From a virus: a DNA stretch of 36,366 nucleotides. Location of the stretch: the IMG/VR virus record IMGVR_UViG_3300023109_000058, positions 1 through 36,366 of that record; one strand, 5' to 3'. The position numbers and the translations under genes are program-made. Below the pieces are notes generated by a model. The model made no database searches. It was not told where the DNA came from and saw nothing but the letters and a program-made list of their open reading frames with translations. Positions 4,401 through 36,226 of this stretch are shown piece after piece; positions within the stretch are counted from its first letter, which is position 1; each line of letters starts with the position of its first letter.

Positions 4401-5043
4401 TGCTAGTATAAACCAAATAAAAAGTATAAGCGACGAAGTAGTATTTCACCCAGTAACATATAAAATGTTATTTGGTGAAAAGGCTGATTCAAGATTACAA
4501 GTAACATTTAAAGTTGTTAAAAACAAAGGCGTTGCAGTTAATAATAATCAATTAAAGTCTACAATCGTACAACTAATAAATCAATTCTTTGCAATTGAAA
4601 ATTGGGACTTTGGTGATACATTTTACTTCCAAGAATTAAGTTCTTATATTATGAATAATTTATCACCTGATTTATCTAGTATAGTTGTTGTACCTAAACA
4701 AGCTAATCAAGTATTTGGTAGTTTGTTTGAAATAAAATCAGAATCAAATGAAATATTTTTAAATGCAGCAACAGTAAATGATATTGAAATAATTGATGAG
4801 CATACAGCAACTAATTTACAAGCATCAGGACTAGTTGTTACAAGTATATCAAGTACAATGCAAGGTGTACAAACTAGAAGTACAAATGCACCAACTACTT
4901 TACCAAGTAGTAGCGCAACAACTACAGTTGTACAAAACACTGGTGCAGCAATAGTCACAGGTGCAAATGATGCAACTTCAGTAACATATAATCCAATAGG
5001 AAATAATGTTGCAAATAATAATGACGAAGGAAGTAACTACTAA
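1432..5043 (+). CDS. 6: Baseplate wedge subunit gp6 (enlarged)
   Basis: A 1,203-residue protein, nearly twice T4 gp6 (660 aa). The N-terminal domain (about 11-150) is typical of gp6: EDWKKIYQSFSNADFQSYDF, then an RRTMINYL helix, YLALIDLIAFLGQNLSFRID and an ENFLETAERRESVLRLAKLI helix. A central NRLVTAEDYN motif (about 426-435) matches the baseplate-J-like core. The C-terminal gp6-like domain runs from about 1003 to 1120 (VVFHPVTYKMLFGE onward). The last 65 residues or so are Thr/Ser/Asn-rich and low in complexity. In T4, gp6 forms the wedge backbone with gp7 and gp53 and joins wedges into the baseplate ring. The extra length lies between the J-like core and the C-terminal domain (about 450-1000). 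It has its own late promoter and an AGGA ribosome site. Its TAA overlaps the next ATG (TAATG, 5041-5045), so gp6 and the giant protein are translationally coupled. Confidence 0.9.
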   Translation: MSSTDRQSRVIATEDWKKIYQSFSNADFQSYDFDNLRRTMINYLRQNYPEDFNDYIESSEYLALIDLIAFLGQNLSFRIDLNARENFLETAERRESVLRLAKLISYNPKRNKAASGLLKFETVSTTENLIDSTGKNLRGSTVLWNDRANPNYFEQFVKIINAALPNAEGVGSPTITANIEGVVTEQYRFNALNTDIPVFGFSKPVEGVNTRFEIVSTGIENETIVEEAPLPGNNPAFVYRDDSQGAGSSNTGFFMHFKQGQLENASFSTGNPVPNQIVGIDDTNINNSDIWLYSVDSNNFESALWKKLESVEGNNIIYNSLFKDTKDVYAVSTRSDDRINLVFSDGVFGNLPTGNFRTYYRTSDNRNMVINPSSLQSITIQIPYISKNNAQETLTIGLSLKNTVSNGRPSETSEDIKQNAPASYYTQNRLVTAEDYNIGPLGIDQDIIKTKTVNRISSGISRYFDLTDPTGKYSTTSLFASDGVLYRQEYLENFNFSFTTQSDIEGIIYSQVERRIASTSVQNYYNENFDKVNTTDLNAVWRQTTSKTNRSTGYFEQILDLAEIFTSANGNQAASSVYSVGTYTTNALKNIKTGAMCKFTAPEGYHFMKNGKLMLGTADHEGSSDYVWTTVKSIDADGTVVDDDGFGPIVFNDVIPNGAILNQILPKYSTAIVDDVKKQIIDRAFAYKDFALRFDQTSSEWKLITSDNLNTYAPFSLQRQGDISRSNQDNSWVFYFQTDGQTFNVSYRNLRYVFESDSEVRFFFDSADKVYDTKTGKIAQDKITILNINTKPNSLGAFNKDFDWSISDAYKDSEGYNDTRRVQLAFYDSDDDGISDNPELFKEIVDETGFIFQKKYSSVDGVQDYKYFDNSDGIVKVRQNDALDPINVNAEVDGQVFYIVDFDLFKVLNKAQNNMTITDEYRAFIGRAGLKFHYVHVADSNYRIDPASSNILDTYVLTKDYDTQVRKYVNGGITSLPLPPSSDELFRNYGASINQIKSISDEVVFHPVTYKMLFGEKADSRLQVTFKVVKNKGVAVNNNQLKSTIVQLINQFFAIENWDFGDTFYFQELSSYIMNNLSPDLSSIVVVPKQANQVFGSLFEIKSESNEIFLNAATVNDIEIIDEHTATNLQASGLVVTSISSTMQGVQTRSTNAPTTLPSSSATTTVVQNTGAAIVTGANDATSVTYNPIGNNVANNNDEGSNY

Positions 5044-17000: not shown

Positions 17001-19121
17001 GTATCAGACTTTGATTTACCAGTATATTACAATGTAGATACTGGTAAAGTTACACCAATAAGTGTACAACTAAAAAATGGAGTAGCAGTTGTTGATAACG
17101 ATTTAGTAAACGAATATCCTAGAAAAAATTGGCTAGATAATATCGGAGCAAGTATTACTGAAATTACTATTAGTAATCCAGGGACTGAATATACTATTGC
17201 GCCAAAAGTTGAAATTATCGGTAACGGCACAGGCGCAACAGCACAAGCATATGTAGGCTACGGAACAATAACTAATATTGTAATCACAAATAAAGGCAAA
17301 GGATATACCCAAACACCAACAGTGAAAATTACTCCACCACCTAATAGTGCAGGTACGCCTGCAACAGCTATTGCTGTCCTAGGAGATATGTTGGCAAGAA
17401 CTGCAAATACTACAATTAAGTTTGACAGAAATAGTGTTACACCATTGTTAAGTGCAGAAGATATGAGAAAAATTGAAACATTTACAGGCACAGGAAGTAA
17501 AACTACTTTTGACTTAATTTTTCCAGCTAACTTAGATCAAAATACAATTAGTATTTTAGTTAACAATCAAGAAGTACTAGCAAGTCAGTTTAATGTATAT
17601 AATATTAAAGATACAACACGAAGTTATACTAGATATGTAGGGCAAATTGTGTTTGATGTAGCACCAGCAAATAATGCGTTAATTGAAATTAACTATACTA
17701 AAAATATTAATATGTTAAATGCAGTTGATAGAATAAAAGTTGCATATACACCAGATGCAAATGCATTTGGTAATGATATTGCACAACTTATGGACGGTGT
17801 TGATTACGGCGGTGTTGAAGTTAAGAGCTTTGAATTTGATACAAACTTTGGTTGGGATACCAAGGGATGGTTTAACGATATTTGGGACGAAATTGAAAAT
17901 ACACAAGAAGATGAAATTGTCTATATGGATGATTCTAGTGCAATTGTTTTAAATAAACCATTAGAAGATAATGTTGCTTATAATGTTTACAGAGTAGGTT
18001 ATGACGTAAACGGTAATGTTGTAACAAATAGAAGACTAGATGATCCAAACTTCGACACGCCACAGCAAACTAATCTTGATGCAACATGTCTTACGTTAGT
18101 TGGTGACGGAAGCACTCAAATTTTACACTTAGAAGATCTACAAGCAACGACGGTATTAGGTGCTAATGAATCAAGAGTAGCATTTATAGTAAGAAAAACT
18201 ACAAGTGACGGTAGTATACTTTATGATGCAAGAACTTATGATCTAGATCTCGACGGCGGCAATATGAATTATTCTAATGCTAAAGGTATTACTGCTGAAG
18301 AAATTATTGTAGATGGTGATAGCTTTGTTACTCCTACTACAAGCAAAAGTGTTGAAGAACTAGTTCCAGGACAAGTGCAAGATACATTAGATATCCAAGT
18401 TAGTACATTAGGCGATGACTCGTCGTTAGTACGTTACAGAATATTTAAAGATATTCTTAACAGAACAATCTATAGCCGTATTGACACACCACCGACTAAA
18501 CTTGCAAAATCAATTACACAGTTAAGCCTAAGTATTGAAGTCGAAGATGGAACAAATTTAATTGAACCAAACAGAACAAAAAATATTCCAGGTGTGCTTA
18601 TGATTAATAAAGAGCGTATTGAATATCTTGTAAAAGATGGAAATGTGTTAAAACAACTACGTCGCGGCACGTTGGGCACAGGTGTTGCAAATATACATCC
18701 AAAAGGAGAGCAAGTATTTTTAGCTGATATTAGTAAGTACGTACCTTACGTAGACACTACACAAAGTCAAACAGCTACTAATGTAAGTATAGTAAACTTA
18801 AACTTCTTACCTTTGTCAACAGACGAATTTGAAGTATTTGTAAACGGTCTTAGACTAAATGGAAAACCATTTGCTAAGTTTGATGCAACAGTTGGACTTG
18901 ATTCACCTGAAGCAGACTCAATTGTTCCTGCAGATTACGTAATAGAATATTATAACAATCAACAGAATGCAAGAATAGTAATACAAAGCCCAGCAATATT
19001 AAATATTGAACAAAAGAATATAGTGATTGTAAGGAAAAAAGGTAATATTTGGCAACGTTTAGGCGAGTCAATAACCGAAACTGAAACAAGTATCGGATTT
19101 TTCCTTAGAGCAGGAAACTAA
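5043..19121 (+). CDS. Giant multi-module virion structural protein in the gp7 position (4,692 aa)
   Basis: One uninterrupted frame predicting a protein of roughly 0.5 MDa. Residues 1-165 carry the signature I associate with the large structural protein of marine T4-like phages (RFLPRFFRSEANLKFLQATI; IDWDKFVNFREYYWLPNGP). Residues about 168-333 resemble a cupredoxin-like sandwich with CPHHP at 208-212. A conserved block near 480-700 includes VEGMRVLFTADTD and LGFPLSYRNI. Five W..Y..GD.V..ndlYY.A hairpins like CBM5/12 lie near 1564, 1820, 2328, 2948 and 3006. FG-GAP or propeller-like blades lie around 2243-2326 and 2920-3293. Paired NPGxGY modules lie at about 3678-3739 and 4033-4101. Beta-sandwich repeats with FTGTGSKTTFDLIFP and VFVNGLRL end the protein. 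Position after 25-6 and coupling to gp6 suggest it replaces gp7 and perhaps further wedge or fibre parts. That equivalence is inference; the virion-protein call is firm. Confidence 0.85.
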   Translation: MANTQGEFGLPTPDDDKRQSARFLPRFFRSEANLKFLQATIDQLIQPGVAEKLSGYVGRKTAKGFRSTDTYIPEISIQRQSYQLEPGVVIKDNVDNVKFFKDYNDFINQLKFFNVDTSDHSVINEQESYPWNPNIDWDKFVNFREYYWLPNGPLSVPVEGQSEEVTSTYTITAEDQGGNYAYVFSNRLARNPSVKLFRGQKYRFEIDCPHHPIAIAITRSFTPGNAVIVATQEGIRNDGLFDAELFGAEFDAGDFIILPEEGGVTFEDSDNVSTLYPDGIKKLGDAGEEIANIYMTKGAIEFTVPYNAPNKLYYINSNDIDMSGEFRIYDIEENTYLNVRDEIVGAKTYSSANGVKFTNGLKVFFRGQTTPEYFAEGNYYVDGVGTSIQLIAEDDLILPQAYTATEVIEYDTDKFDRLPYSTATGYPALKDYVTINRASADGNAWARSNRWFHKSVIEQSAIFNNFTNDVDETTKASRPIIEFEPGLHLYHYGTEFKKDIDLIDTFTTDVFSTIEGSKGYNIDGVDLVEGMRVLFTADTDIRVTGKIYEVKFVRIVNDNLISLIETNDTLPLENENVLVKQGTKNKGKVYFYRDGWKEAQEKTKINQPPMFALYSPSGDAFSDMEIYNSSTFTGTKLFSYKQGTGTVDSELGFPLSYRNIDNTGDILFDFNLESDSFTYQLDETTNSIFTKTGFLKKYISREKFKYANGWSSIPYVSKQPVVREYQASINQQTSFEIDVYDNATNITDLNVKVFVNNIIQNKNLYTLIKNNNRLIVEFSNNVEVGDLVVIKTQSSTAKNENGYYEFPINLEKNPLNADVSTFTLGEVNDHVKTMIDDLNDFDGVYPGYSNLKDLGDLDRFGKRFVKHSGPLNLPMYLTLDKKYNIIKSIEYSMREYNKFKRNFLQTSETLGFDGEVKQHVDVIIKELNKDKTKTQPFYFSDMIGYKGHIRNEYVIFDDANTYYPLSTNFNLKTLNTSSVLVYFNGEQLIHNKDYIFTDESFLQLLIAQQINDVVEVYEYNNTDGSYVPPTPTKLGLYPSYEPQMVRDDEWLSNQNQINTADAYQLYGQNTSSKKVGWFHPLYVDRSAAKLADSNGEVTQVEINGSSRIYFAPKSSYVCSKSASLSIPVYPVGKAIIIGHDGSRISAYEDYRDNLLLELEKRIFNNIKSNYNANIFNKDDFVSGKFRKGITKSKLDRILLKDFITWNTNIGVDYTSNKFYFSQDQFTFNYSKSTSSIDGAFLPGYWRGVFLELYDTDRPHTHPWEMLGLTIKPKWWEDTYGKAPYTSNNNILWKDLEEGRIKDPNLLIQVNEKYARPGLTSIIPVDSQGHLLSPISCGYAKNTVLRDTNSAFKFGDNAPVEAAWRNSSEYPFSLVKAMLLNQPAKFLALGFDVSRTTKNLANQIVYSNTGRHVELENLIFPNTYEDTTKVLTSGVVNFIHALIGSNVLKTYDEFQTDIRSIENKVAFRLAGYTDKTKLNIVLDSKNPAAQNTANIFVPDENITVYTNTSSPVDSIVYSGVKIEKSATGYIVSGYNDDEPSFKYYAPVTTNRDANIVIGGTLEPSVDWSPAQFYVKGQIIVNDSNLYRATSDFTSGNTFTNDNITKIPEIPTVGGTRGIIKKEFNYNIVLEVNYGTVLKTLQDVVDLLIGYGRYLEVNGFEFNYVDEQSETITNWTNAAKEFLAWSAQGWANGTSIALSPAAFQVEFKRDFTVVDDIYDNFYRYSLLDENAQPLNRKFSSILRDNNSFSLTVKNSDNGIYNVKLPLVQKEHVVIIDNETVFNDLIYQPSTGYRQERLKLIGYRSDNWNGSLNIPGFVYDDAELTEWEPWQDYQIGSLVKNKEFYYVAKYNAPGTKDFDYSYWTRLNDKPESKLITNFDYRINQFADYYDIDSDGFDEQQNKLAQHLIGYQKRDYLANIINDDVSQYKFYQGMLQDKGTMNSIDNFFNSLRGESNSVEVFEEWAVQVGKYGAYQNVEQIEIPLDESKFRESPQAIEILDYMPNDVFDTVYRVRTHELLDKPIDTTEELFPTKVLEEFTESRGYVHEDDVEYKTQSISDLKVIDNNQLTAGEYIWITDKTPNDWTVFQIVDSQFVVREMFVNTELDEFDRTTATLTVRQNSLYSIVAGDLVAITGAQLYSVYGYFEVITIDYETIVIAIPETNEFLDFTDEEYSLSVLRTVRVEDFDQYNNIAQNSIFDNQRVWIDNYENNSWAVLDNKPVYNSVTQEYNPNDLQDSSNLADIDQEFTKSISVTADNKEVYVSSPSSGGGEVFYYRRNQDNDDLGLAQTLGNSNDFYDGTESNYGESISASHDGKYLAVGVPNASAVKTFYKGEFAETKNYTKWDIVKHKETLWQANTSINSKKDTTTFSTFDNYTQIINRTTDTNISLLSTGNPGLENTDVDHFILRAPTDMFQGSSVGDVISLKWNEKTQLNNNIVYSPWNNSVSGLDKAVIENNHTIASKIEAIITITNIAKTPLVGDFVRLFTTNLGASTATVDYVAIDASNAVVYLKDIKGVLNASGSAYVENQTTNEIVLLGDYTKVEYGFEEEFNGFWKIDVAQYNNGETFFEEGKGLVYADLFKQENYSEETKNRNTYYNISNTELLIGDFLQENRRASMIEQISSPDNLSNKFLVRVGQEFTTEIGDSFNFYMNKNDDSSDEISTVGFTFEDLNKEQTIVDIWDGYIDFENDVNVAQIGEQEFEVGDIIIDQQFALDTNLLVSETPLAPFNKAEVVHVKTFGSTQGNRRRVYIKITQGDWQLKQNVQLVRLIRERGNADIGRIRTVNNQIDYSNSVIVPTGNNIGKFLVLEAENAFAFSQSATLIDKEYYFYTELFGIAGAPTQADTPSSLNRNWKQVYNISTPDGDAVKSSATLDNGVEDQGLVIIYYKSAPDQYVRVAQIVSEQSFGMPNAQFGKTVKIISTDTGYKLYAASNYSIEYFENSPLSENRFRGNWNRTLSYSVGDIVFHYGKYYEIQQTLTPADQTDGSINNLNAFKPTSWRRIIDTNYKGSWQTVHDYRIGDIVEHNDLYYVAQSNFAPNGQAPSATNALWVVTSDVVYQNYLKPVANTGYDVRIDNFVLNNTATALAVKVSNIAPDSTVTNEIRIYGSTTSGKYIKSQTIRPPASGTEFGMSYDFSTDGSFLAISEPHNSDNGTNVGKVYLYTNTNGTYELTQTLEPPKNSVSLNFGYSLSFSDNVLSIASFAGIVLTTTIFDADETLFDLDQTEFQKVNYDPGVIYVYEQVKNKFIFAESIPYDNVTKELREQVLINANHIYVGVPAKENNVYVGGLYDYRKKVNSSGWNVSRELIQPVDLDKIQGAFLYNKRTNSIITYLDYIDPIQGKIAGPADKNINFKVPFDPAYYNVGDTADTFYWEENHVGMVWWNTGTSTFTYPYQGDINYQRDNWNELQPGATVDVCEWVETDYLPSEWDELSETTDGIAQGITGQTLYGDSQYSKKFVFNEQSQTFSEKYYYWVKNAKIIPAKTNRTLTTLDIARLIAVPRQQGYRYLSMLSSNRIVLNNCNGLVYDTDVVLAIRYSNTNIDKQNSHSAYKLITDGLDTSGPSADIELKWFDSLIGFDINNRAIPDVNLTEKQKYGVQSTPRQGMFKNRREALKEFIERVNVVLSNELVIEKFNISAIDQKDPLPTFESGVYDVKIDSLDQLSLVGTKVKQAKLEPIIINGKITKVKIIDPGRGYKTAPSYKINGFGEDARFDIGLNNLGQITTVQVIYGGKNYANTTQIDVRRHSVLVESDSEVDNKWSIYAYDNEQLKWNRIKVQSYDITKYWSYIDWYDTEYSVLTNPDYTINSTYELSFIDDQLGDIIKVNSVGTGGWSLLEKVNTNTENDYKTVGRENGTIQFKDNLYRNETSNSGFDNKSFDSFLFDIDPRFELRVILETIRDALLIKDLRIEYNQLFIATLRYILTEQNPDWFFKTSFIKVKHLAGNLDQDLTYNIDNLENYKRYIEEVKPYKTNIREFVSNFQKIETASTSVSDFDLPVYYNVDTGKVTPISVQLKNGVAVVDNDLVNEYPRKNWLDNIGASITEITISNPGTEYTIAPKVEIIGNGTGATAQAYVGYGTITNIVITNKGKGYTQTPTVKITPPPNSAGTPATAIAVLGDMLARTANTTIKFDRNSVTPLLSAEDMRKIETFTGTGSKTTFDLIFPANLDQNTISILVNNQEVLASQFNVYNIKDTTRSYTRYVGQIVFDVAPANNALIEINYTKNINMLNAVDRIKVAYTPDANAFGNDIAQLMDGVDYGGVEVKSFEFDTNFGWDTKGWFNDIWDEIENTQEDEIVYMDDSSAIVLNKPLEDNVAYNVYRVGYDVNGNVVTNRRLDDPNFDTPQQTNLDATCLTLVGDGSTQILHLEDLQATTVLGANESRVAFIVRKTTSDGSILYDARTYDLDLDGGNMNYSNAKGITAEEIIVDGDSFVTPTTSKSVEELVPGQVQDTLDIQVSTLGDDSSLVRYRIFKDILNRTIYSRIDTPPTKLAKSITQLSLSIEVEDGTNLIEPNRTKNIPGVLMINKERIEYLVKDGNVLKQLRRGTLGTGVANIHPKGEQVFLADISKYVPYVDTTQSQTATNVSIVNLNFLPLSTDEFEVFVNGLRLNGKPFAKFDATVGLDSPEADSIVPADYVIEYYNNQQNARIVIQSPAILNIEQKNIVIVRKKGNIWQRLGESITETETSIGFFLRAGN
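5544..6041 (+). other. Cupredoxin-like domain within the giant protein
   Basis: Residues about 168-333 of the giant protein run YTITAEDQGGNYAYVFSN, then LFRGQKYRFEIDCPHHPIAI and later AIEFTVPYNAPNKLYYI. This strand order, with RGxxYxFxIxxxxHP and a late PxxAPxxLYY, is like cupredoxin-fold domains of secreted and marine-phage proteins. C208, H210 and H211 are candidate metal ligands, but a full copper site is not shown. Confidence 0.4.
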
Positions 19122-25583: not shown

Positions 25584-26636
25584 ATGGCTGCTGATATAAT
25601 TACAGCATCAAGGTTTAACCTTTTACAAAAACGATTATCATCTATACTGGGCAGCGGTAATGCCCAGTCGGGGTACGGCCAAGGCATATCAGGATATGGC
25701 GGGCGTGTATCAAGTAGTGAAGTTTCGATATTAAACGAAAGTAACAGAAATATTGCTACTGCTGAAAATATTAATGAGCTTTATACTGATATACTACGAG
25801 CACGTATACATCAAATTGGATACGAAAATGAAGAAATTACAAACACAGTTCGTAATGCTAGACTAAAACCTAATCTAAATCTTATAGCGGATGAAACTAG
25901 TAATTTCTTTTCAGACCTAGCTGTTGAATCTGACGATCCAGACGGCGAATTATTAGGTATGCGTGACTTTGAACGTATGATGAGTCTTGTTGAACGAGAT
26001 AAATTTCTCGTTCACGATTCAATGGCAGTAGAAGAAACAGGCGAAAGCTTCTTTAGAGTAAGACCTTGGGATTTTAAATTAACACACGAAGTACGAGTGC
26101 GTTTTAGAAATGCAAATCACCGCAGACACTTTTTCAATAGTGGCGGCCAATTACAAATAAGTGCATTATTAAATAATCCCGCTGGTAATAAATCTTTAGA
26201 TTGGGCACAAACATTATCATTAGCCGGAACAATTAAGTTTGGCTACAATTATTGTGAATCTACAAGCACTGACACTATATCTCCTCCAGCAATACTATCG
26301 GGAATTGGAAATTATCAACTTTCAAATCAATACGATGTGTACACTGGAACAAATCTTATTGGGCCGTTGTTTGTAAAACAAAGCCGTGGCGAATACGATG
26401 AAGGCAGATATATAGGTAATAATTTTACAATAAGTGCAAAAGAAATTAATGCATCAGAAATACAATTTAGAATGGTGTATGACGATGTATCTGCTGATTC
26501 TTTCCAGTATGTGCAAGGAACAATGCGTAGTTTTGTAAATCACTACCGTTCTAAAGGTACTTTTGCTTCCGAAAATGATATATACTTAAACGTGGAGGTT
26601 CCTGCTCCATATTATGAAAATATAACAACTTTTTAG
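25584..26636 (+). CDS. Virion structural protein, triplet family member 1 (350 aa)
   Basis: First of three adjacent paralogues. Shared landmarks are an N-terminal ITASRFNLLQKRLSSILG (6-23), NINELYTDILRARIHQIG (62-79), RDKFLVHDS (138-146), NHRRHFFNSGGQL (178-190) and the closing VEVPAPYYENITTF. Residues 24-45 are glycine-rich (SGYGQGISGYGG), likely a flexible loop. No signal peptide, membrane segment or catalytic motif is visible. I recall similar proteins in marine T4-like phage tail regions annotated only as structural. Position directly after the fibre genes suggests a tail or fibre component. The AAGGA ribosome site (25572-25576) overlaps the previous stop, so it is probably co-transcribed with the third fibre gene. 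Specific function not known. Confidence 0.82.
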   Translation: MAADIITASRFNLLQKRLSSILGSGNAQSGYGQGISGYGGRVSSSEVSILNESNRNIATAENINELYTDILRARIHQIGYENEEITNTVRNARLKPNLNLIADETSNFFSDLAVESDDPDGELLGMRDFERMMSLVERDKFLVHDSMAVEETGESFFRVRPWDFKLTHEVRVRFRNANHRRHFFNSGGQLQISALLNNPAGNKSLDWAQTLSLAGTIKFGYNYCESTSTDTISPPAILSGIGNYQLSNQYDVYTGTNLIGPLFVKQSRGEYDEGRYIGNNFTISAKEINASEIQFRMVYDDVSADSFQYVQGTMRSFVNHYRSKGTFASENDIYLNVEVPAPYYENITTF

Positions 26637-26644
26637 GATAGTAA

Positions 26645-27712
26645 ATGGCCATAGGTGATACAGTTACAGCAGACCGGTTTAATAACCTTCAGACACGTAT
26701 CACAAGAATTTTAGGTTTTGGTGGCGGAGACTTTGGTTATAAACAAGGTTATAGCGAATCAACGGGAAATTATGGACCAGCTGAAACTAGTACACCAGTT
26801 TCAACAGACCCACTAAGTAATAGGAACATTGCAACGGCAGCTGATATAAATGAGCTATATATTGATTTGTTAAGAGCTCGAATCCATCAAATTGGTTTAG
26901 ATAATAATGAAATAACTGACATTATTAAAAACACACGGATAGTAAAAGATAGTAATGTTATTGCAGATGGTGAAAGTTTCTTTGTAGATAATGATGGTAT
27001 TGAAACAGTTGACCCAGAAGGATTTGCTAAAGGATTTGCTGATTTTGAATTATTAATGGATAATATAGAATTAGATAAATTTATTTGCCATTCTACACAA
27101 GGTGTAGCAGAAACTGGTGAATTAATTAATACAGGCCAACCTTCGATATCTGAACGAACTGACGGATGGAATACTACAATTAACTTTGTTGTAAAAGCAG
27201 TATTTGACGATTTTGATCATCGACGTGCATTTTTTAACAGTGGCGGCGAAATACGAATGGAGGCAGATCTAAATCTGCCTGAAGGAGCAAAAGCTGCTGA
27301 TTGGACTGATTTATTAAATGCAGCTGGTGTAATCAAATTTGGATATGACGAAACGATAGGAACTGCACAAGGAATAGTTTATCCGATAGGTAATAACGAC
27401 TTAGATCTACTAGATTATCAACTATTATTTTCTAAATCAAGCTCAGGAATTACACTTGGAGGAATTTATGCAGCAAACACTTTTACAATAAGTGCAAAAC
27501 TACTTAGTGATAGAATTATAGAATTTAAATATGAGTTCGATGATGCAGATAGTTCAGGCGAAGATGATGATTTAGTTGTAGGTGATATGTCCGCAACAAT
27601 TGGACATTTTAGAGCCAAGGGTGTTTTTGATGATCCTGCAGATAATATTTTTAATGTAGAAGTACCGCCACCAGTATACGAAATAGTTACTGAACTATAT
27701 GAGGGAGTGTAA
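26645..27712 (+). CDS. Virion structural protein, triplet family member 2 (355 aa)
   Basis: The paralogue with the closest match to member 1: VTADRFNNLQTRITRILG (7-24), NRNIATAADINELYIDLLRA (59-78), LDKFICHST (143-151), DHRRAFFNSGGEIRM (191-205), GVIKFGYDE near 240 and a VEVPPPVYEIVTE end. It has an acidic loop, DDADSSGEDDDL, shortly before the last strands that the other two copies lack. It follows member 1 by 8 bases, with an AGGA site (26635-26638) overlapping the TAG stop. Three different copies side by side suggest either a hetero-oligomeric tail part or alternating surface variants. Neither can be decided from the sequence, and no enzymatic motif is visible. Confidence 0.82.
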   Translation: MAIGDTVTADRFNNLQTRITRILGFGGGDFGYKQGYSESTGNYGPAETSTPVSTDPLSNRNIATAADINELYIDLLRARIHQIGLDNNEITDIIKNTRIVKDSNVIADGESFFVDNDGIETVDPEGFAKGFADFELLMDNIELDKFICHSTQGVAETGELINTGQPSISERTDGWNTTINFVVKAVFDDFDHRRAFFNSGGEIRMEADLNLPEGAKAADWTDLLNAAGVIKFGYDETIGTAQGIVYPIGNNDLDLLDYQLLFSKSSSGITLGGIYAANTFTISAKLLSDRIIEFKYEFDDADSSGEDDDLVVGDMSATIGHFRAKGVFDDPADNIFNVEVPPPVYEIVTELYEGV

Positions 27713-28696
27713 ATGCCCACAACAATAAAAATTACTGCGGCTAATTATAATAGTTTGCAAGATCAAATATCTGCTATATTAACAACTAGCCTTGCTGGAT
27801 CACCACAAACAGGATGGGGACAAAGTAGTAATAGTGACACACACGAACCAACTGCTCCACAAACTACATTGATTACAGCACAACAGTACGAAGATTTGTA
27901 TATAGATGTTGTACGCTCACGAGTACACCAAATAGGCGCAGCAAATTTTACAATTGATGACTTTGTTACAGGTGACTATGCAACAAACACTACTGATACA
28001 GATTTAGTAGAGCATCTTTATTATACTAATTTACAATCTCTTATTACTACTATAGAAACGGATAAATTTGTTGTTCATACTTCTCAAGTAGAGGAAGTTG
28101 CTTATAATGCTAATCAACGCACTACAGGATGGAAAGTAAAAGTAGTGCATGAATTTAGTCTAACTTGGACAAATGCCGAACACAGGCGACATTATTTTAA
28201 TGCCGGCGGGTTAATCCGTTTATACACTGATCTAGCAGGTAATTCAACAGCAAAAGGCACAGACTGGGCAAATGCACTTGATTATGGAACATTAAATTTT
28301 AGTCACGATGAAACTTATACACTCGACGGCGCAAATAAAACAGTATCAAGTTCGTTAGGAAATTATAACGGTTTAACAGGCTCATACCAAATAATTTTAT
28401 CTCGTAGTCCTGTAGCTTATACACCAAACATTTACACAGTTGAGGTAAAAGAAGTAAGCGATTCTCGTTTAGATTTTAGAATTACATATGACGATGTAAA
28501 TAACTCTGCACTAACGCCGGCTGATGCAAATGATGGATTTCCAGACGTTGATGAACTAGTTACAGGTACACTAACAAGCCAAATCGAAGCTGTAAAACCC
28601 TGGGGTACAGTTACTATAGATGGCACAGTATATGATACAGTAAAAGTAAACGAACCTACTTATGCTGTAATAACAAATTTATCATCAGGCACTTGA
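27713..28696 (+). CDS. Virion structural protein, triplet family member 3 (327 aa)
   Basis: The most divergent copy: ITAANYNSLQDQISAILT (7-24), QQYEDLYIDVVRSRVHQIG (57-75), TDKFVVHTSQ (116-125), EHRRHYFNAGGLIRL (156-170), LNFSHDETY, and a VKVNEPTYAVITNLSSGT end matching the other two. The glycine loop after the first helix is shorter (SPQTGWGQSS). The start directly abuts the previous stop, with a GAGGGAG site (27701-27707). Its own TGA stop (28694-28696) lies inside the -35 box of the sigma70-type promoter that begins the next unit, so this gene is the last of the apparent late structural block. Function beyond virion structure is not recognised. Confidence 0.8.
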   Translation: MPTTIKITAANYNSLQDQISAILTTSLAGSPQTGWGQSSNSDTHEPTAPQTTLITAQQYEDLYIDVVRSRVHQIGAANFTIDDFVTGDYATNTTDTDLVEHLYYTNLQSLITTIETDKFVVHTSQVEEVAYNANQRTTGWKVKVVHEFSLTWTNAEHRRHYFNAGGLIRLYTDLAGNSTAKGTDWANALDYGTLNFSHDETYTLDGANKTVSSSLGNYNGLTGSYQIILSRSPVAYTPNIYTVEVKEVSDSRLDFRITYDDVNNSALTPADANDGFPDVDELVTGTLTSQIEAVKPWGTVTIDGTVYDTVKVNEPTYAVITNLSSGT

Positions 28697-28742: not shown

Positions 28743-29096
28743 ATGGACGAGCGATTATCACAAGCACTTGAGTTTTCGAACTATATCACAACAATTAACA
28801 ACCAAAAAAGAATGATTAAAGAAAAATACTTTCAGTCATTAATTTATTTTTGTCAAGGCGGCCAATTTACTATCACAAAGGAACTTATTACATTTGTAAC
28901 GTTACTTGTTGAAAAAGGTAATGTTGAAAATATTGTATTAGTTGATGACAACGATACTCCGATCCAAATTAACGATCTTGAAATGTTTTTAGATGAGATA
29001 CTTTCAAAATATTTTGAAACAGCAAATACATACCATCAAAAATATACCGAACTGGCAAAAAATAGAGATATTGGATCTTTAGTAAACAATGACTAA
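28743..29096 (+). CDS. Small conserved-looking phage protein of unknown function (117 aa)
   Basis: First gene after the sigma70-type promoter, with the best ribosome site of the cluster (AGGAG, 28732-28736). It is mostly helical: an N-terminal helix rich in charged residues (ALEFSNYITTINNQKRMIKE), GGQFTITKELITFVTLL, a VLVDDNDTPIQINDLEMFLDEI segment and a final helix (YHQKYTELAK). There is no signal peptide, zinc motif or membrane segment. I recall similar short proteins in T4-like cyanophages carried as conserved hypotheticals near tail genes. A small cytoplasmic or virion-assembly protein is possible; no function is assigned. It overlaps the glycosyltransferase gene by 8 bases (ATGACTAA), so the two are translationally coupled. 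Confidence 0.78.
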   Translation: MDERLSQALEFSNYITTINNQKRMIKEKYFQSLIYFCQGGQFTITKELITFVTLLVEKGNVENIVLVDDNDTPIQINDLEMFLDEILSKYFETANTYHQKYTELAKNRDIGSLVNND

Positions 29097-29928
29097 AGGA
29101 GTAGTATTAATTGCAAATAATAACGGTGCTGTTGATTATGTCAAACAAGCAATATATTGCGCAAAACGCATAGGAAAATATCTAAAACTACCAGTGACAC
29201 TGATAACAGATAGTCATAATTATGCAGTAGAAACATCAAATAATGTATTTGATAAAATAATTTCTACTGATTATAAAGTATCTAATAACAATAAAATATA
29301 TTATGATGGCGCAATGGCGCATAAGATATTAATGTTTAAAAATCATAGCCGGACAGTTGCATACTACAATACTCCATACGATCAAACTATATTAATGGAT
29401 ACTGACTACCTAGTTTCTAGTGATATTCTTAATAACTGTTTTGACATGACATCTGACTTAATGATGTATAAAGATAGCTACGATATTTCTAATGTAAGGG
29501 ATGTTAGTGAGTTTAAGTATATAAGTGATAAAAGTGTTGACTTTTATTGGGCCACCGTAGTGTACTTTGAAAAGTCTAAAAAGAACGACATCTACTTTAA
29601 TCTTATTGATCATATAGAAGAAAATTGGAAATACTATCAAAACATGTATGACATAAATTCAACCCTATTTAGAAATGATTTTGCATTTAGTATTGCATTA
29701 CATATTATGAACGGGTTTACTAGTAATAATCAAGTGTCTATACAGCTTCCAGGTAAACATTATTATACAATTGATAAAGACGTATTGTGGAGTGTTAAAG
29801 ATAATAATATGACATTCTTGGTACATAAGAAAAAGTATGAAGGACAGTATACTTTATTGAGTACTACCGGATTAGATGTACATGTAATGAATAAATTTAG
29901 TTTAGAGAGAATTATTAATAATGAGTAA
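29089..29928 (+). CDS. GT-A-like glycosyltransferase (279 aa)
   Basis: It opens with a Rossmann-like strand KGVVLIANNN (3-12), then a helix DYVKQAIYCAKRIGKYLKLP and a second strand VTLITD (36-41). A DxD-type motif, ILMDTDYLVS (101-110; D104, D106), is where GT-A enzymes bind the metal and nucleotide sugar. FRNDFAFSIALHIMNG (194-209) resembles the acceptor-side helix of similar enzymes, and the end carries LDVHVMNKFSLERI. There is no signal peptide or membrane anchor, so it should act in the cytoplasm of the infected cell. The fold resembles GT8-like enzymes; donor and acceptor are unknown. The next gene encodes a paralogue with the same core. It overlaps both neighbours by 8 bases. Confidence 0.78.
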   Translation: MTKGVVLIANNNGAVDYVKQAIYCAKRIGKYLKLPVTLITDSHNYAVETSNNVFDKIISTDYKVSNNNKIYYDGAMAHKILMFKNHSRTVAYYNTPYDQTILMDTDYLVSSDILNNCFDMTSDLMMYKDSYDISNVRDVSEFKYISDKSVDFYWATVVYFEKSKKNDIYFNLIDHIEENWKYYQNMYDINSTLFRNDFAFSIALHIMNGFTSNNQVSIQLPGKHYYTIDKDVLWSVKDNNMTFLVHKKKYEGQYTLLSTTGLDVHVMNKFSLERIINNE

Positions 29929-31333
29929 AGGATATGTTATTGTAGCACAAAATAATTTAGATTATGACTACAGAATTGCACCTAATCACGATCTTGTACC
30001 TCAATATGAAGGCATTTACGTTGACGTGTGGTATAAAGAGATGGACTATATAAAAGGTCAGCATATTTATAATAATGGATCTGTATATAAGGTTAATAAA
30101 ACAAGTAAGACATTTACAAATTTTGAAGAATTAGATTTAAAGTTAATTGTAAAAAATGTTAGACTAATTGATGACGAAAATACTCGATTAGATTTTCATC
30201 GTGCTCACACTAATGACTTAGTATTATCAAATAATAATCTTTACACAGTCAAACAACAAGATAATAAAATTCCGTATGAATTAACTTCGATTTATAAAGG
30301 TATACATGTTGACGTTTACTATGATAATCTAGAGTATGTTACAGATCAACATGTGCTAAAAGATAATATCGTTTATAAAATGACATGTAATAGTAAAGAT
30401 ATAAACAAATCAACAGCTGAAATAATTGTGACAGACATAAAATTATATGAAGATGCAAATAAATCATTATGGTTTGAAGATGCAAAAGCAGGCGATAAAG
30501 TTTTATATTACAATCATTTATTTCAACTAGAACCTGTAGTATTTGATGATTATATAAAGCAAGCATGTTACTTAGCAGCAAGTCTACATAAATTTAATGC
30601 TAATGCAAAAATATCTGTAATAACTAACGACATAATACCAGAGGAATATACAAAGTTATTTGATCATATTATTCCTATACCATACGGCGATGCTGCTGCT
30701 AATTCTATATGGAAGGTAGAAAATCGTTGGAAAGTATATCATAGTACTCCTTACGATGAAACCGTAGTATTTGATGCAGATATGTTTATATTACAAGACA
30801 TAACATCTTGGTGGGACTATTTTAGCAATTATGAATTATATTTTACTACCCAGGTAAAAACATATAGAGATAAATTGGTTACTAGCGATGCGTACCGTAA
30901 AACATTTGTGGCTAATAATTTACCTAATATATATACAGGTATGTACTATTTTAAAAAATGCAAACTAGCAGATGATTTCTTTGATATGCTAGAGCTAATA
31001 TGTAAGGATTGGGAAATATTTTATGAGAAATTTCTACCAAAAGACACTCCGTTTAATCTAAGCATTGATGTAGCATCAGCACTAGCAATCATGATATTGG
31101 GTATAGAAGATAAAGTTACAAATAAACAAAATACTGAAATTACTTTTATTCATATGAAACCTAAGATACAAGAATGGAGACGTTATTATGACTCGTGGCA
31201 AGCGTCATTAGGTGTATACTTTGACCAAAATATAGAATTGAAATTAGGTAATCACCGCCAGTTAGGAATTTTACACTACACTGAAACTAGTTTTCTAAAT
31301 AATATTAATATAGAAAGTATTTTAAATGTCTGA
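29921..31333 (+). CDS. GT-A-like glycosyltransferase with an inserted double repeat module (470 aa)
   Basis: A paralogue of the preceding gene. The first strand KGYVIVAQNN (3-12) is followed not by the expected helix but by about 190 extra residues. The core then resumes at FDDYIKQACYLAASLHKF (208-225), ISVITND, and a DxD motif VVFDADMFI (282-290; D285, D287). The insert (about 13-206) is two copies of a module of about 80 residues: copy 1 at 30-111 (EGIYVDVWYKEMDYIKGQHI) and copy 2 at 126-204 (KGIHVDVYYDNLEYVTDQHV). Each contains two GxxVxxNNxLYxV hairpins. The next gene has a third copy. Probable action: nucleotide-sugar transfer to an unknown acceptor, with the insert binding or positioning it. 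The core assignment is fairly secure; the role of the insert is inference. Confidence 0.75.
   Translation: MSKGYVIVAQNNLDYDYRIAPNHDLVPQYEGIYVDVWYKEMDYIKGQHIYNNGSVYKVNKTSKTFTNFEELDLKLIVKNVRLIDDENTRLDFHRAHTNDLVLSNNNLYTVKQQDNKIPYELTSIYKGIHVDVYYDNLEYVTDQHVLKDNIVYKMTCNSKDINKSTAEIIVTDIKLYEDANKSLWFEDAKAGDKVLYYNHLFQLEPVVFDDYIKQACYLAASLHKFNANAKISVITNDIIPEEYTKLFDHIIPIPYGDAAANSIWKVENRWKVYHSTPYDETVVFDADMFILQDITSWWDYFSNYELYFTTQVKTYRDKLVTSDAYRKTFVANNLPNIYTGMYYFKKCKLADDFFDMLELICKDWEIFYEKFLPKDTPFNLSIDVASALAIMILGIEDKVTNKQNTEITFIHMKPKIQEWRRYYDSWQASLGVYFDQNIELKLGNHRQLGILHYTETSFLNNINIESILNV
29957..30538 (+). repeat. Inserted tandem module (two copies, about 80 aa each) inside the glycosyltransferase
   Basis: Residues 13-206 interrupt the glycosyltransferase core between its first strand and first helix, judged against the 279-aa paralogue, where these are contiguous. 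Copies 1 and 2 share GI(Y/H)VDV(W/Y)Y and a (K/T)(G/D)QH(I/V) hairpin. Each has a second hairpin further on (DLVLSNNNLYTV at 99-110; DKVLYYNHLFQL at 192-203). Confidence 0.65.
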
Positions 31334-32231
31334 TCTTATAAACGTTCTTAAACGTATAAACAAAAAAATAGAATCGTCGTCTGACAGTTATGTATACTAT
31401 GACGAGTTAACTGGTATGATTAAAAAAATTTCCAATATTAGTGAAATTAATGATTACGGTATATTAAGAGTTAATCATGAACAAGTTAAAGATATTATTA
31501 AAGGTCGATACAAATATAGTGATTTTCTAGTTACATACGATAACTCTCAAAGAATTAATGTACTGAAACGTAGAGATCTTAAAAACAACTCTCGTGAAAT
31601 AAGAGATAGAATATATAAAATTAAACAAGTATATAATGATTACTACCATAAAGAAATATATAAAGGCATACATGTTGATGTATGGTATAAAGATCTTGAA
31701 CATCTTAAAGGTCAACATGTCTGGCATGATAATGTTGTGTATAAGGCGAAAGATGTAATACCATCAAACACAAAATTTAATGCTAACCATTATGAAAAAA
31801 TTTTAAGCGATGTAATTCTTTATAAAGATGTAAATATAAACTTACCATTTAAGCCATTAACAGCTATTGGACAGTCATTTTTAAATAATAATTATCTTTA
31901 TCAGTATTCTCAAGGAATTGACATTGAGGACTTAACAATTAAAAGAGATTTAACTACGAACTGTTGGAGTTTCATAACTTCACTTGCAGTACAAGACGAC
32001 ATAAGTTTTAGAAATTTAGAAAGTATCAGAAATACAAGTTTGTCTATTTTTGTTACAGCCTTAAATGATCCTAATATCTTATACAGACATTTTCTAATTC
32101 CAGTAAATGATTTACTCAGAGATAGTAGCATACATATATCTTTCAAATACGATTGGGAAAGCACCGATAAGCAAGTAAGTATATATACAAATAAGTTCTT
32201 TGACACTTATGTCTATAGGGTAATTAAATGA
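31326..32231 (+). CDS. Unknown protein carrying the same repeat module (301 aa), probably structural or substrate-binding
   Basis: There are three parts. Residues 1-107 are basic and helical with YVYYDELTGMIKKISN (22-37), a pattern I associate with virion proteins of marine T4-like phages. Residues 111-196 are a single copy of the module found in the preceding glycosyltransferase: YKGIHVDVWYKDLEHLKGQH (112-131), VVYKAKDV, then IGQSFLNNNYLYQY (181-194). Residues about 205-301 form a strand-rich end (SLSIFVTALNDPNI, HISFKYDWES, VSIYTNKFFDTYVYRVI). No enzyme motif is visible. Sharing the module suggests that it and the glycosyltransferase bind the same partner, or that one recognises the other. 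It may be a virion protein that is the target of the transferase. It overlaps the upstream gene by 8 bases and the downstream one by 4. Confidence 0.7.
   Translation: MSDLINVLKRINKKIESSSDSYVYYDELTGMIKKISNISEINDYGILRVNHEQVKDIIKGRYKYSDFLVTYDNSQRINVLKRRDLKNNSREIRDRIYKIKQVYNDYYHKEIYKGIHVDVWYKDLEHLKGQHVWHDNVVYKAKDVIPSNTKFNANHYEKILSDVILYKDVNINLPFKPLTAIGQSFLNNNYLYQYSQGIDIEDLTIKRDLTTNCWSFITSLAVQDDISFRNLESIRNTSLSIFVTALNDPNILYRHFLIPVNDLLRDSSIHISFKYDWESTDKQVSIYTNKFFDTYVYRVIK
31656..31913 (+). repeat. Third copy of the module shared with the upstream glycosyltransferase
   Basis: Residues 111-196 of the 301-aa protein match the inserted glycosyltransferase modules: YKGIHVDVWYKDLEHLKGQH aligns with both copies, and IGQSFLNNNYLYQY with their second hairpins. 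The match is clear in protein sequence. The DNA has diverged enough that a recent duplication is unlikely. Confidence 0.65.
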
Positions 32232-33157
32232 ACAAAAAGTTTAGAGTAACAGATTATGATATTATATATTTGTCATATGATGAACCAAATGCTGAAAAAA
32301 ACTATGCAGATTTGTGTAATAAAGTGCCATGGGCTAAACGTGTACATGGAGTTGAAGGATCAGATGCGGCACACAAGGCATGTGCAGAACTAAGCGAAAC
32401 TGATCGGTTTATTACAATCGATGGTGATAATATTATAGATGAACGATTTCTTAATCAAGAAATAGATTTTGAAGAACATGCTAACTTGTCCACTAGTGTA
32501 ATTAGTTGGACTGCTAAAAATACAATTAATGGATTAACATACGGCAACGGTGGAATTAAATGCTGGCCAAAAAACTATGTTCTTAACATGCGTACACATG
32601 AAAATGCAGATCCAAATAACGCCCATGCACAGGTTGATTTTTGTTGGGATATTAAATATATACAAATGAACGGAACCTACAGCGAAATAATGAATAACGC
32701 TACTCCGCATCAAGCATGGCGTGCTGGATTTAGAGAAGGTGTAAAGATGACATTAGATCAAGGCATTGGGGTAACAAAAGAACAGTTACTTAAAAGTCAC
32801 TGGAAAAATTTGCATCGATTATATATTTGGTTAATGGTAGGTGCAGATGTAGAAAACGGAAAATGGGCTATTTACGGTGCTAGAGAAGGACTGTACAAAA
32901 CTATGTGTACAGACTGGAATTTTATCAATGTACGTGACTTTGAATATCTTAATAATCTTTGGAAAGAAATTGAACCTAAAGTATCAATGGACGGACTAGA
33001 AGACTCTATTGAAGAATATGGTATTAAGCTTATTAAAGAACTTGAAATACCGATTGCAGAAAGTCCGTTAAACGCACAACAAAGTAAGTTCTTTAAGACA
33101 GTGTACCAGAATCCTGCTCGTACTGCTAATCAACAATTTATTAACCAGGAATGTTAA
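32228..33157 (+). CDS. Glycosyltransferase-like protein with DGDN motif (309 aa)
   Basis: A GT-A-like opening: strand DIIYLSYDEPNAEKNY (11-26), VPWAKRVHGVEGSDAAHKAC (33-52), then FITIDGDNIID (61-71), where DGDN (65-68) sits where family 2 enzymes carry their metal-binding DxD. GLTYGNGGIKCWPK (102-115) is a conserved-looking loop that could hold the acceptor. HQAWRAGFREGVKMTLDQG follows at about 170-188. I recall this architecture as a recurrent, poorly studied family in marine phage and bacterial surface-sugar clusters. No membrane segment is present. Donor and acceptor are unknown. It starts by ATGA overlap (32228-32231), and its TAA shares a TAATG junction with the radical SAM gene, so expression is coupled along the cluster. 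Confidence 0.72.
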   Translation: MNKKFRVTDYDIIYLSYDEPNAEKNYADLCNKVPWAKRVHGVEGSDAAHKACAELSETDRFITIDGDNIIDERFLNQEIDFEEHANLSTSVISWTAKNTINGLTYGNGGIKCWPKNYVLNMRTHENADPNNAHAQVDFCWDIKYIQMNGTYSEIMNNATPHQAWRAGFREGVKMTLDQGIGVTKEQLLKSHWKNLHRLYIWLMVGADVENGKWAIYGAREGLYKTMCTDWNFINVRDFEYLNNLWKEIEPKVSMDGLEDSIEEYGIKLIKELEIPIAESPLNAQQSKFFKTVYQNPARTANQQFINQEC

Positions 33158-34554
33158 TGACAGATATACATACTTTTAAAAAAGAAAAATTAGATAAAGT
33201 AAGTTGTTCATTTTGTATAGCAAAATGGAAGCAAGTAACAATACATCTTCATAATGGACATACACATAGTTGTCACCATCCAGCGCCACACAAGATACCT
33301 ATTGAAGAATTAAAAGATAACCCTAGCGCATTACATAATACTAATTTTAAAAAACAACAGCGTAAAAAGATGCTAGAAGGCGACCGCCCCAACGAATGTG
33401 ATTATTGCTGGCGTGTGGAAGATTCCGGTAGCGATAGTTTAAGCGACAGAACATATAAATCAGCTGAGCCTTGGTCTCAGTCATACCTAGAAGATATTGT
33501 ATCCAAGCCGTGGGACGATAATGTTAACCCGAGCTATCTTGAAGTCAGCTTTAGTAGTGTTTGTAATTTTAAATGCTCATATTGTTCTCCACAGGTTAGT
33601 AGTAAGTGGATGGAAGAAATACAACAACATGGCCCATATCCAACTTCAACTAAATTTAATAATTTAGATTATTTGCGTGAAACAAATTCGATGCCTATTC
33701 CAAATAGAGAACATAATCCTTATGTCGAAGCATTTTGGAAATGGTGGCCTGATGTTTCAAAGGACTTACATCACTTTAGAATTACCGGCGGCGAGCCATT
33801 ACTTGCTAAAGATACTTTTAAAGTTTTAGATGATCTAATAGCAAATCCTAAGCCTAATCTAGAAGTGTCAATTAACAGTAATATGTGTATACCAGATGCA
33901 GTATTTAATAATTTTATTGAAAAAATTAAAATTATCTGTAACGAAGGTAAAGTAAAGAAGTTTAAAATATTTACAAGTGCCGAAGCACATGGAGCTCAGG
34001 CTGAATATATACGTCATGGTTTAAATTATAATCAATGGTTAGACAATATTCATCGGGTGTTAAGAGAAGTACCAAATTGTTCTTTTACATGTATGAGTAC
34101 CTATAACTTTTTAAGTTTGTTTAGTTTTAAAGAGTTTAGCAAAGATATTCTTGATATAAAGCAAGAATACGGCGGACACGATGTAAGACTTCATCCTATG
34201 ATTCTCGATGTTCCATTTTTGAGACATCCTCCACACCAAGCTATTTTCATTATGCCAGAAAAATTTAAAAAGTATGTATACGACCAAGTAACGTATGTAC
34301 ATGAAAATGTTGAAAATCCAACATGGTATGGTACCGCAAATAATAGATTTTATCAGTGGGAAGCAGATAAATTTAAAAGACTATATGAGATCATTACATA
34401 TATAGATGAAACACATGAAACTAAACCACATGTTATAGAAAATCGATTAAACTTTATTAAGTTTGTTAATGAGCATGACAGAAGGCGCGGAACTAATTTT
34501 CTTAAAACGTTCCCTGAAATGGAAGAAGAATATTATAAGTGGTCTAAACTATGA
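33157..34554 (+). CDS. Radical SAM protein with extra N-terminal cysteine pairs (twitch-type)
   Basis: CNFKCSYC (136-143, counted from the ATG at 33157) is the CxxxCxxC site binding the 4Fe-4S cluster that cleaves S-adenosylmethionine. FRITGGEPLL (207-216) is the GGEP motif that positions it. Upstream are C17, C20, C39 and a CDYC pair (81, 84), which could hold an auxiliary cluster; the order resembles proteins annotated as twitch-domain radical SAM. Start choice: ATG codons lie at 33151 and 33157. The AGGA at 33147-33150 abuts the first (no spacing) but sits six bases from the second, which also forms the TAATG junction used elsewhere in this genome, so 33157 is preferred. The substrate is unknown. 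Within a glycosyltransferase cluster it may act on a sugar or on a peptide carried by one of the neighbouring products. Family call strong, role inferred. Confidence 0.85.
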   Translation: MTDIHTFKKEKLDKVSCSFCIAKWKQVTIHLHNGHTHSCHHPAPHKIPIEELKDNPSALHNTNFKKQQRKKMLEGDRPNECDYCWRVEDSGSDSLSDRTYKSAEPWSQSYLEDIVSKPWDDNVNPSYLEVSFSSVCNFKCSYCSPQVSSKWMEEIQQHGPYPTSTKFNNLDYLRETNSMPIPNREHNPYVEAFWKWWPDVSKDLHHFRITGGEPLLAKDTFKVLDDLIANPKPNLEVSINSNMCIPDAVFNNFIEKIKIICNEGKVKKFKIFTSAEAHGAQAEYIRHGLNYNQWLDNIHRVLREVPNCSFTCMSTYNFLSLFSFKEFSKDILDIKQEYGGHDVRLHPMILDVPFLRHPPHQAIFIMPEKFKKYVYDQVTYVHENVENPTWYGTANNRFYQWEADKFKRLYEIITYIDETHETKPHVIENRLNFIKFVNEHDRRRGTNFLKTFPEMEEEYYKWSKL

Positions 34555-35423
34555 GTGATAAACTAAATAAAAAAAATATAAAAGTTGCATTTTGTTTTAG
34601 TGGACAACTTCGTACATGGAACAGATGCATAATGAATTGGAAAAAGTTATTTAAAAATCTAGAAAAAACATATGGTATAACTGAAATTGACGTATTTTGT
34701 CATATTTGGGATCACAATACCTTGCAGCAAAGTATTGCTACTGAGAAATATGGTAATAATATTATCGATAACGCATCTGTATTATCTAACGCCGAAATAG
34801 GTAATTATATTAAACAACTTAATCCGGTAGATTACAAAATTAGTAATATAACAGCATCTAAGAACTCAACGCAGCAGACACTTGATCAGCAAGCACTTGA
34901 CACAAAGTGTCTTTACGGTGAATGCAGTAATGCGTGGATGTCACCACAATTTTATTCAGTCATGTATTCTGCACATTTAAAAAGAATGCATGAAATAAAA
35001 CATAATTTTAATTACGATGTGTGTGTTCGTATGAGAAATGATCTCTATTTCAAAAAAAGTTTATCAGCTCTGTCTATAGAAAATCTGTTAAACCCTAAAT
35101 TTAATACAGTTTATTCTTGTCATACTGGAATAGATGATGTAATGTGGTTTAAAAGGAGACTAGGTGATATATTTTGGTATGCTGATAGTCCAACATTTGA
35201 TAAGATGTCAAATTTCTATCAGTGGTTGCCGACATTAGGATCTAGAGCTATATCTCAGACATCAGATGCAGCTCCAGAACATCTATTATATTTTTATGCA
35301 AAAATGTTTAACATATCAATAGATACAATATCTGATGATCCTAAAATAGTTCGAGACTCAGAATATGTTAAATTAAAACAAGATTTTGGTTTCGGACCGC
35401 TCGGAGGTTATGAAATATCATGA
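34551..35423 (+). CDS. FSGQ-type glycosyltransferase-like protein, copy 1 (290 aa)
   Basis: First of two tandem paralogues. Shared landmarks: a first strand and loop VAFCFSGQLRTW (12-23), VFCHIWD (48-54), VCVRMRNDLYF (157-167), where R-x-D could serve as the metal or sugar-phosphate site, and DDVMWF (195-200). The pattern FSGQ-R ... H-WD ... RxRxD ... DD-M-F recurs in a family found in surface-polysaccharide and marine phage clusters that I believe are glycosyltransferase-like, though substrates are not established. There is no signal peptide or membrane span, so it is probably cytoplasmic. It is larger than copy 2 because of an insert near 56-125 (LQQSIATEKYGNN and SKNSTQQTLDQQAL). It overlaps both neighbours by ATGA-type junctions of 4 bases. 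Confidence 0.7.
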   Translation: MSDKLNKKNIKVAFCFSGQLRTWNRCIMNWKKLFKNLEKTYGITEIDVFCHIWDHNTLQQSIATEKYGNNIIDNASVLSNAEIGNYIKQLNPVDYKISNITASKNSTQQTLDQQALDTKCLYGECSNAWMSPQFYSVMYSAHLKRMHEIKHNFNYDVCVRMRNDLYFKKSLSALSIENLLNPKFNTVYSCHTGIDDVMWFKRRLGDIFWYADSPTFDKMSNFYQWLPTLGSRAISQTSDAAPEHLLYFYAKMFNISIDTISDDPKIVRDSEYVKLKQDFGFGPLGGYEIS

Positions 35424-36226
35424 AAGAGAAAATAAGAGTTGCAGTTTGTTTTAGTGGACAAATACGAGATTGGAAACTTGCTTCAAAAAATATTTTAACT
35501 TACTTTTCACCGGCAAAAGATTCCGGCATATCAGTAGATTATTTTATACATACTTGGGATACTAACACATGGAGATTTCCAAAAACAGATATACACACCT
35601 ACATAGACAAGAAGCATAACGATATAAGCGAATTAGTAGACACATATAAGCCAGTTTCGTATCATATGTCAGAATATCATTGTAACGAGTGGAAATCATC
35701 TTGGGACCCTTTATTTTATAGTTTTGAATATAGCATAATGCTAAAGAGACAGTACGAATTGGAAAACAATTTTGTATATGATATTGTAATAAAGGCCCGT
35801 CCTGACACTGTATATAATCCTACTAAACGTTTTCCGTTCTATCATCATGTTGATGATGGCTCATGCTATACTGCGACTGAAATAGCTAGATTTTCAGCTG
35901 AATTTAATACGCAGTGTTTCGACGATGTTATGTTTTTTGGTAACAGCAAAACAATGGATGTTCTGTCAGGGTTATATAAGTATTATGCCTTAAAACATAG
36001 AGACAACAAAAACCCAGAAATAACAGTCAAACAACTTAATATTAATACAGAACTACATTTAGGCCCAGGCACGCTTCTTTATCGATATGCAATATCACAC
36101 AATATTCATCCCGATAGTTATAAAATTGATTACGCAATAGTCCGAAGTACTATGCAAGGTAAGGGACTAGACTCTGTCGAAGACTACGATAAAATAAAAA
36201 AACTTTGGCAGGAGTGGTACATATAA
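35420..36226 (+). CDS. FSGQ-type glycosyltransferase-like protein, copy 2 (268 aa)
   Basis: Landmarks match copy 1: VAVCFSGQIRDW (7-18), YFIHTWDTNTW (41-51), DIVIKARPDTVYN (121-133) and DDVMFFG (168-174). It keeps both parts of the R-x-D motif as ARPD. It reaches the shared motifs sooner than copy 1 because it lacks copy 1's central insert. A GGAGGT ribosome site (35403-35408) lies 11 bases before its ATG, and its stop shares a TAATG junction with the hydrolase gene. Two adjacent, diverged copies suggest successive transfers in one glycan pathway rather than redundancy (inference). Substrate unknown. Confidence 0.7.
   Translation: MKEKIRVAVCFSGQIRDWKLASKNILTYFSPAKDSGISVDYFIHTWDTNTWRFPKTDIHTYIDKKHNDISELVDTYKPVSYHMSEYHCNEWKSSWDPLFYSFEYSIMLKRQYELENNFVYDIVIKARPDTVYNPTKRFPFYHHVDDGSCYTATEIARFSAEFNTQCFDDVMFFGNSKTMDVLSGLYKYYALKHRDNKNPEITVKQLNINTELHLGPGTLLYRYAISHNIHPDSYKIDYAIVRSTMQGKGLDSVEDYDKIKKLWQEWYI

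Follow-up and report, generated by a model that had tools for sequence, protein, structure and literature searches.

GTb, a glycosyltransferase of large aquatic phages, carries two tandem modules inside its catalytic fold, after the predicted first strand and before the first helix, and their presence there as a real domain insertion into a GT-A core is well supported by natural insert-free orthologues, which document it, and by a structure model. The window analyzed is the whole stretch of 36,366 nucleotides of IMG/VR record IMGVR_UViG_3300023109_000058. GTb is a 470-aa protein encoded at positions 29921..31333, on the plus strand like every feature of the window located below, and was recognized from its open reading frame, its GT8 matches (glycogenin and LgtC) and the same architecture on 21 other contigs.

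By sequence and predicted fold, GTb is a GT8-like, GT-A fold glycosyltransferase, and these profile and fold matches to GT8 enzymes agree with the GT-A core that an earlier note on this DNA had claimed for the 470-aa protein. A profile of insert-free GTb matched glycogenin at an E value of 1.5e-4 in profile searches. The Pfam search returned no GT family match, GT8 included, and GTb is therefore classed only as GT8-like. The core also resembles phrog_1903, an unannotated family, in a partial match restricted to residues 209-360 (E value, 1e-6). The DxD motif (D285-A-D287, 30773..30781) and H452 in GILHYTE (31274..31276) are invariant in the close orthologues, and the same residues are found in the insert-free set. 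H452 is a candidate for the C-terminal metal/phosphate histidine of GT-A enzymes, a role that we assume from GT-A folds generally.

Insertion site and insert-free orthologues

Insert-free GTb orthologues of 279-286 aa occur in synteny on dozens of IMG/VR contigs and represent the majority state. They occupy the GTb gene position, open with MSKGIxVLAQN(N) and continue directly into xxDYVxQAC. At the junction, MSKGILVLAQNN-STVDYVEQAC of the insert-free form is matched in the window by MSKGYVIVAQNN, the insert and then FDDYIKQAC. The insertion after GTb residue 12 is real because insert-free orthologues in the same gene position run straight across this junction; the same orthologues rule out a misreading of two unrelated proteins as an insertion. 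The segment MSKGYVIVAQNN (residues 1-12, 29921..29956) lies N-terminal to the insert and holds the first core strand and the start of the nucleotide loop. Its pattern opens the insert-free orthologues, and its dN is 0-0.07. About 196 residues separate it from the first core helix, DYIKQACYLAASL. The insert itself (residues 13 to about 208, 29957..30544) is absent from the insert-free orthologues.

Insert-bearing GTb was found on 22 IMG/VR contigs including the window (one copy is cut by a contig end), comprising a close group and the types L022/L023, L029, L136 and L141. The eight full-length close orthologues (79-97% identical) have an identical layout with zero indels. Lineages as low as 44-46% identical over the whole protein still carry the insert, and both modules are present in every complete insert-bearing copy.

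An insertion at 29957-30538, between the first strand and the helix, had been proposed in the earlier note. The insert-free orthologues and the AlphaFold2 layout agree with that site and with its start, and the end shifts to 30544. The boundary had been read from the adjacent 279-aa paralogue, here GTa (29089..29928; hhalign, 98.6%; 8-nt overlap with GTb). GTa is a divergent paralogue with only 25% identity to the GTb core and so cannot fix the boundary alone; the insert-free GTb orthologues are the closer module-free relatives. The description of the module as foreign-looking does not extend to its composition: the GC content of the insert (27%) and its codon usage are ordinary for the window, and a foreign origin was rejected on these grounds.

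Predicted structure of GTb

GTb was modeled with AlphaFold2 from a 55-row alignment of full insert-bearing rows, core-only rows, GTa cores and module rows, with the row sets screened by requiring MAFFT to align module rows with module 1 and core rows with the core. A model built from nine near-identical close orthologues had a pLDDT of 39 and was discarded. The retained model has a mean pLDDT of 93 and a pTM of 0.83. It shows a strand at residues 3-8 (assigned by DSSP, in a block of mean pLDDT 93), beta modules at about 24-112 and 121-203, a short strand at 206-209, the first helix at 211-225, a strand at 231-234, and then the GT8 core. The remaining GT-A core, from the first helix on, covers residues 209-470 (30545..31330). 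The prediction of the insert as separate beta domains followed by a GT8 core is the outcome that had been anticipated for the 470-aa protein.

In Foldseek searches, the top match of the model was glycogenin (E value, 2.5e-7), followed by LgtC, UGGT, LARGE1 and GlyE. The whole-chain TM-scores are low, for which the insert in the query is at least partly responsible. An insert-free phage protein of 280 aa was also matched, with a target TM of 0.83. From model confidence, fold and homology, we infer that strand 3-8 pairs within the core. The modules would be an ordinary N-terminal fusion if residues 1-12 lay outside the core and strand 206-209 replaced the first strand, which is the arrangement suggested by the position of that short strand immediately ahead of the first helix and left open by Foldseek output that is silent on whether any alignment bridges the insert. 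However, strand 206-209 stops one residue short of the helix, whereas the corresponding loop of insert-free orthologues is several residues long, and the KGxxxxAQN pattern of insert-free enzymes is kept in residues 1-12 of all insert lineages with almost no amino acid change. The placement of beta1 was also not imposed on the prediction, since the core-only rows of the alignment begin at the first helix. We consider such a fusion very improbable.

Copies and candidate identity of the module

Module 1 (GTb residues 28-110, 30002..30250) and module 2 (residues 124-205, 30290..30535) were delimited from the alignment of copies and the AlphaFold2 model. The two align with each other, as expected if the 470-aa protein holds two copies, which had been noticed before. 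A third copy, absent from the earlier description, lies in the next ORF, w301 (module 3, 31653..31904); it was detected by BLAST against GTb (w470; E values, 8e-14 and 6e-11) and by the alignment of copies, and DNA repeats also reveal the module copies of w470 and w301. Positions that are invariant or nearly so across the copies include G, D, W/Y, GQH, V..Y and D.N..L.

No Pfam family matched the module above the cut-off, with PF02839 sub-threshold at E values of 0.069-0.24. A search of the module profile against the PDB gave nothing significant; the second-best match was the ChiA1 chitin-binding domain (E value, 0.16), a weak sequence match to the first half of the module. Several BFVD fold matches of GTb, spanning about 180 columns, with low TM-scores and very long targets, are phage proteins named chitin oligosaccharide deacetylase, ChiC_BD or CBM5/12. 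A span of this length fits the module pair, and over it the modules may resemble, at the level of the fold, the CBM5/12 (ChiC_BD) domains found in chitinases and phage proteins. A CBM5/12 domain, in contrast, has about 45 residues against about 85-95 for the module, and its sequence scores are sub-threshold. Taken together, the fold matches and the weak sequence matches make the module a candidate chitin-binding domain of the CBM5/12 type, a kind of domain that recurs as repeats within phage tail proteins.

The module in a second glycosyltransferase cassette

The module also occurs in a second, unrelated cassette on contigs L167, L250 and L252-L256. There it is N-terminal to a complete, remotely related glycosyltransferase (hhalign, 94%), and it also ends the protein encoded directly upstream. 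A module N-terminal to a complete core, which had been named as an observation that would speak against an internal insertion, was found only in this different glycosyltransferase family (L167/L250/L253) and never among GTb homologues. Phage C48C1 (Kyanoviridae) encodes adjacent module-free forms of this glycosyltransferase and its neighbor, and a third shared gene comes next. The three-gene cassette is common to marine phages and phage C48C1, in versions that have or lack the module. It spans positions 4001-6727 of L253 and 5538-7418 of L330 (OQ984149) and encodes an unknown protein, the glycosyltransferase and, in third place, a protein with a likeness by eye to 2OG-Fe(II) oxygenases.

On L254 and L256 (4392-6077), the neighbor and the glycosyltransferase form one 561-aa ORF sharing a single chimeric module. 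L255 (4392-5288), which has a separate neighbor ORF and then the start of the glycosyltransferase ORF at the contig end, is identical to L254/L256 for the first 609 nt and for another 73 nt within the module. The fused ORF may reflect real recombination between module copies or an assembly collapse; since the assembly could have collapsed at a short word common to both copies, recombination is not claimed.

Evolutionary history and selection

In the tree of GTb cores (insert left out), 10 of the 11 insert-bearing rows form one clade (support, 100/98). The core of L029 groups inside the insert-free clade, and placing all insert-bearing cores in one clade gives an AU p value of 0.047. The module tree groups every module-1 copy, that of L029 too, in one clade (98/93), while the module-2 copies are not resolved (AU p value, 0.12). 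The module-1 clade fits one homologous double-module insert, and two independent insertions are disfavored. Under a single insertion, the position of the L029 core among insert-free enzymes requires exchange or loss. The simplest account of the two trees is a single double-module insert that was probably transferred or lost later through recombination. The dN/dS ratio is well below 1 in all comparisons with unsaturated dS, in the modules as in the core; by this measure, purifying selection acts on the GTb insert as it does on the core.

The glycosyltransferase cassette

GTa, GTb and the P protein (w301; 301 aa, 31326..32231, 8-nt overlap with GTb), which carries module 3, form a conserved cassette of overlapping genes, whose GTb is module-free in most genomes. 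The module is present in every complete copy found among the P protein orthologues. Insert-free genomes encode a P protein with one or two modules, and all insert-bearing genomes with a complete P ORF encode a short, one-module P protein. The exception is L029, which combines the insert with a long P protein (cut by the contig end). Upstream of the cassette lie baseplate wedge, giant virion protein and tail-fibre genes related to those of the jumbo myoviruses PA5oct and Atu_ph07. Among phage isolates, no match was found to the 470-aa protein, insert-free GTb, the P protein or the module.

Proposed function of the inserted modules

The best explanation as a whole, which we regard as about evenly balanced between right and wrong, is that the inserted modules of GTb are docking or acceptor-binding modules within a tail-linked virion-glycosylation cassette. 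Two tandem beta modules of about 85-95 residues each interrupt, as an insertion, the loop that joins the first strand to the first helix in an enzyme that most relatives have without any module, and the putative CBM5/12-like module would lie at the nucleotide/active-site edge of the fold. A role of the insert near catalysis is supported by its position after the AQNN segment, which we take to be the nucleotide-contacting loop of GT8 enzymes (LgtC and glycogenin). The earlier note had suggested that the module may present or gate the acceptor. The modules may dock GTb on an acceptor, either a tail or fibre protein or the glycan growing on it, or on the partner of the P protein. In insert-free phages, docking would be supplied in trans by the P protein, whereas in the lineage of the window, GTb would carry its own docking modules. 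The one-module P proteins of insert-bearing genomes are consistent with docking having moved into the enzyme, with shared ancestry as a confounder and L029 as an exception. Given that the cassette lies directly downstream of the baseplate and tail-fibre genes, it probably serves to glycosylate a tail component of the virion. In GTb, the modules could also serve in oligomerization or virion incorporation rather than acceptor binding. More tentatively, the module may be a transferable docking tag, acquired by phage glycosyltransferases of different lineages and by proteins of adjacent genes so that an enzyme meets its partner or acceptor; inside the fold beside the active site, as in the GTb lineage, such a tag could present the acceptor directly.

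It is possible, if doubtful, that the modules are homotypic assembly domains that join GTb to the P protein, or both of them to a common scaffold, without glycan binding. Both neighbors carry the module in two unrelated cassettes, a neighbor and a glycosyltransferase share one chimeric module in the L254/L256 contig type, and the short P protein accompanies the insert wherever the P ORF is complete. However, the fused ORF of L254/L256 could be an assembly collapse, shared descent confounds the split between short and long P proteins, L029 pairs the insert with a long P protein, and several of the matched phage proteins are annotated as polysaccharide binding or polysaccharide active, not as assembly factors. 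The long phage proteins that contain CBM5/12-like domains, together with the location of the cassette genes within the tail block, would also suit a GTb packaged in the virion, with modules binding host surface polysaccharide and a glycosyltransferase domain that either acts there or survives as a vestige within a tail protein. We consider this unlikely: the invariant catalytic residues and the purifying selection on the core indicate that the core is not vestigial, and most GTb orthologues are module-free yet occupy the same gene position.

If the insertion were neutral or hitchhiking, in a loop that tolerates it and without site-specific function, this would match an insertion found in a minority of lineages against a majority of insert-free enzymes. 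The retention of the insert across such divergent lineages, the purifying selection on the modules and the preservation of both modules in every complete copy make this quite unlikely. Little is known about target choice by phage virion glycosyltransferases. GTb amounts to a natural before-and-after experiment, with insert-free and insert-bearing forms in one gene slot and the module also present in a neighbor, and the effect of the module on target choice is accessible through its swap or removal in recombinant enzyme.

Comparison with known glycosyltransferases

The GT8 enzymes glycogenin, LgtC and GlyE share with GTb the GT-A fold, the DxD motif and the C-terminal histidine; to our knowledge, no such insert is known in them. 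The lectin domains of GalNAc-transferases and MGAT4A are appended to the catalytic domain, whereas the modules of GTb interrupt the catalytic core. Two reports describe these enzymes as a catalytic glycosyltransferase domain with a sugar-binding-type (lectin) domain that steers the enzyme (PMC4432651, PMC9296478), and to that extent they resemble GTb, in which the joined sugar-binding-type domain is putative. The GT-A fold has three hypervariable regions, HV1 (beta3-alphaC), HV2 (beta6-beta7) and HV3 (C-terminal tail), and their elaborations, like the GTb insert, are additions to the core and are thought to set acceptor specificity (PMC7185993). The insert differs in consisting of whole domains and in its site, which follows beta1, precedes the first helix and is not among the three published regions (PMC7185993), which is in line with the insertion site having been called unusual. 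Our literature search found no description of such an architecture for phage glycosyltransferases. GTb indicates that a GT-A core can accommodate two complete domains at this site.

Other genes in the window and related contigs

The 4692-aa virion protein (5043-19121) has about 28% identity to its PA5oct and Atu_ph07 counterparts. Directly ahead of the cassette (25584-28696) are three tandem, paralogue-like ORFs of 350, 355 and 327 aa. More modification-type genes follow at 32228-34554, among them a radical SAM protein (Pfam E value, 4e-7) and a 309-aa protein with a glycosyltransferase-like IDGDN motif recognized by eye and no family match. An adjacent protein pair at 34551-36226 belongs to phrog_13607, a family of unknown function. 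Two contigs of one Neomarinimicrobiota MAG (L328 and L329) each carry an insert-free cassette and are probably phage contigs binned into the MAG.
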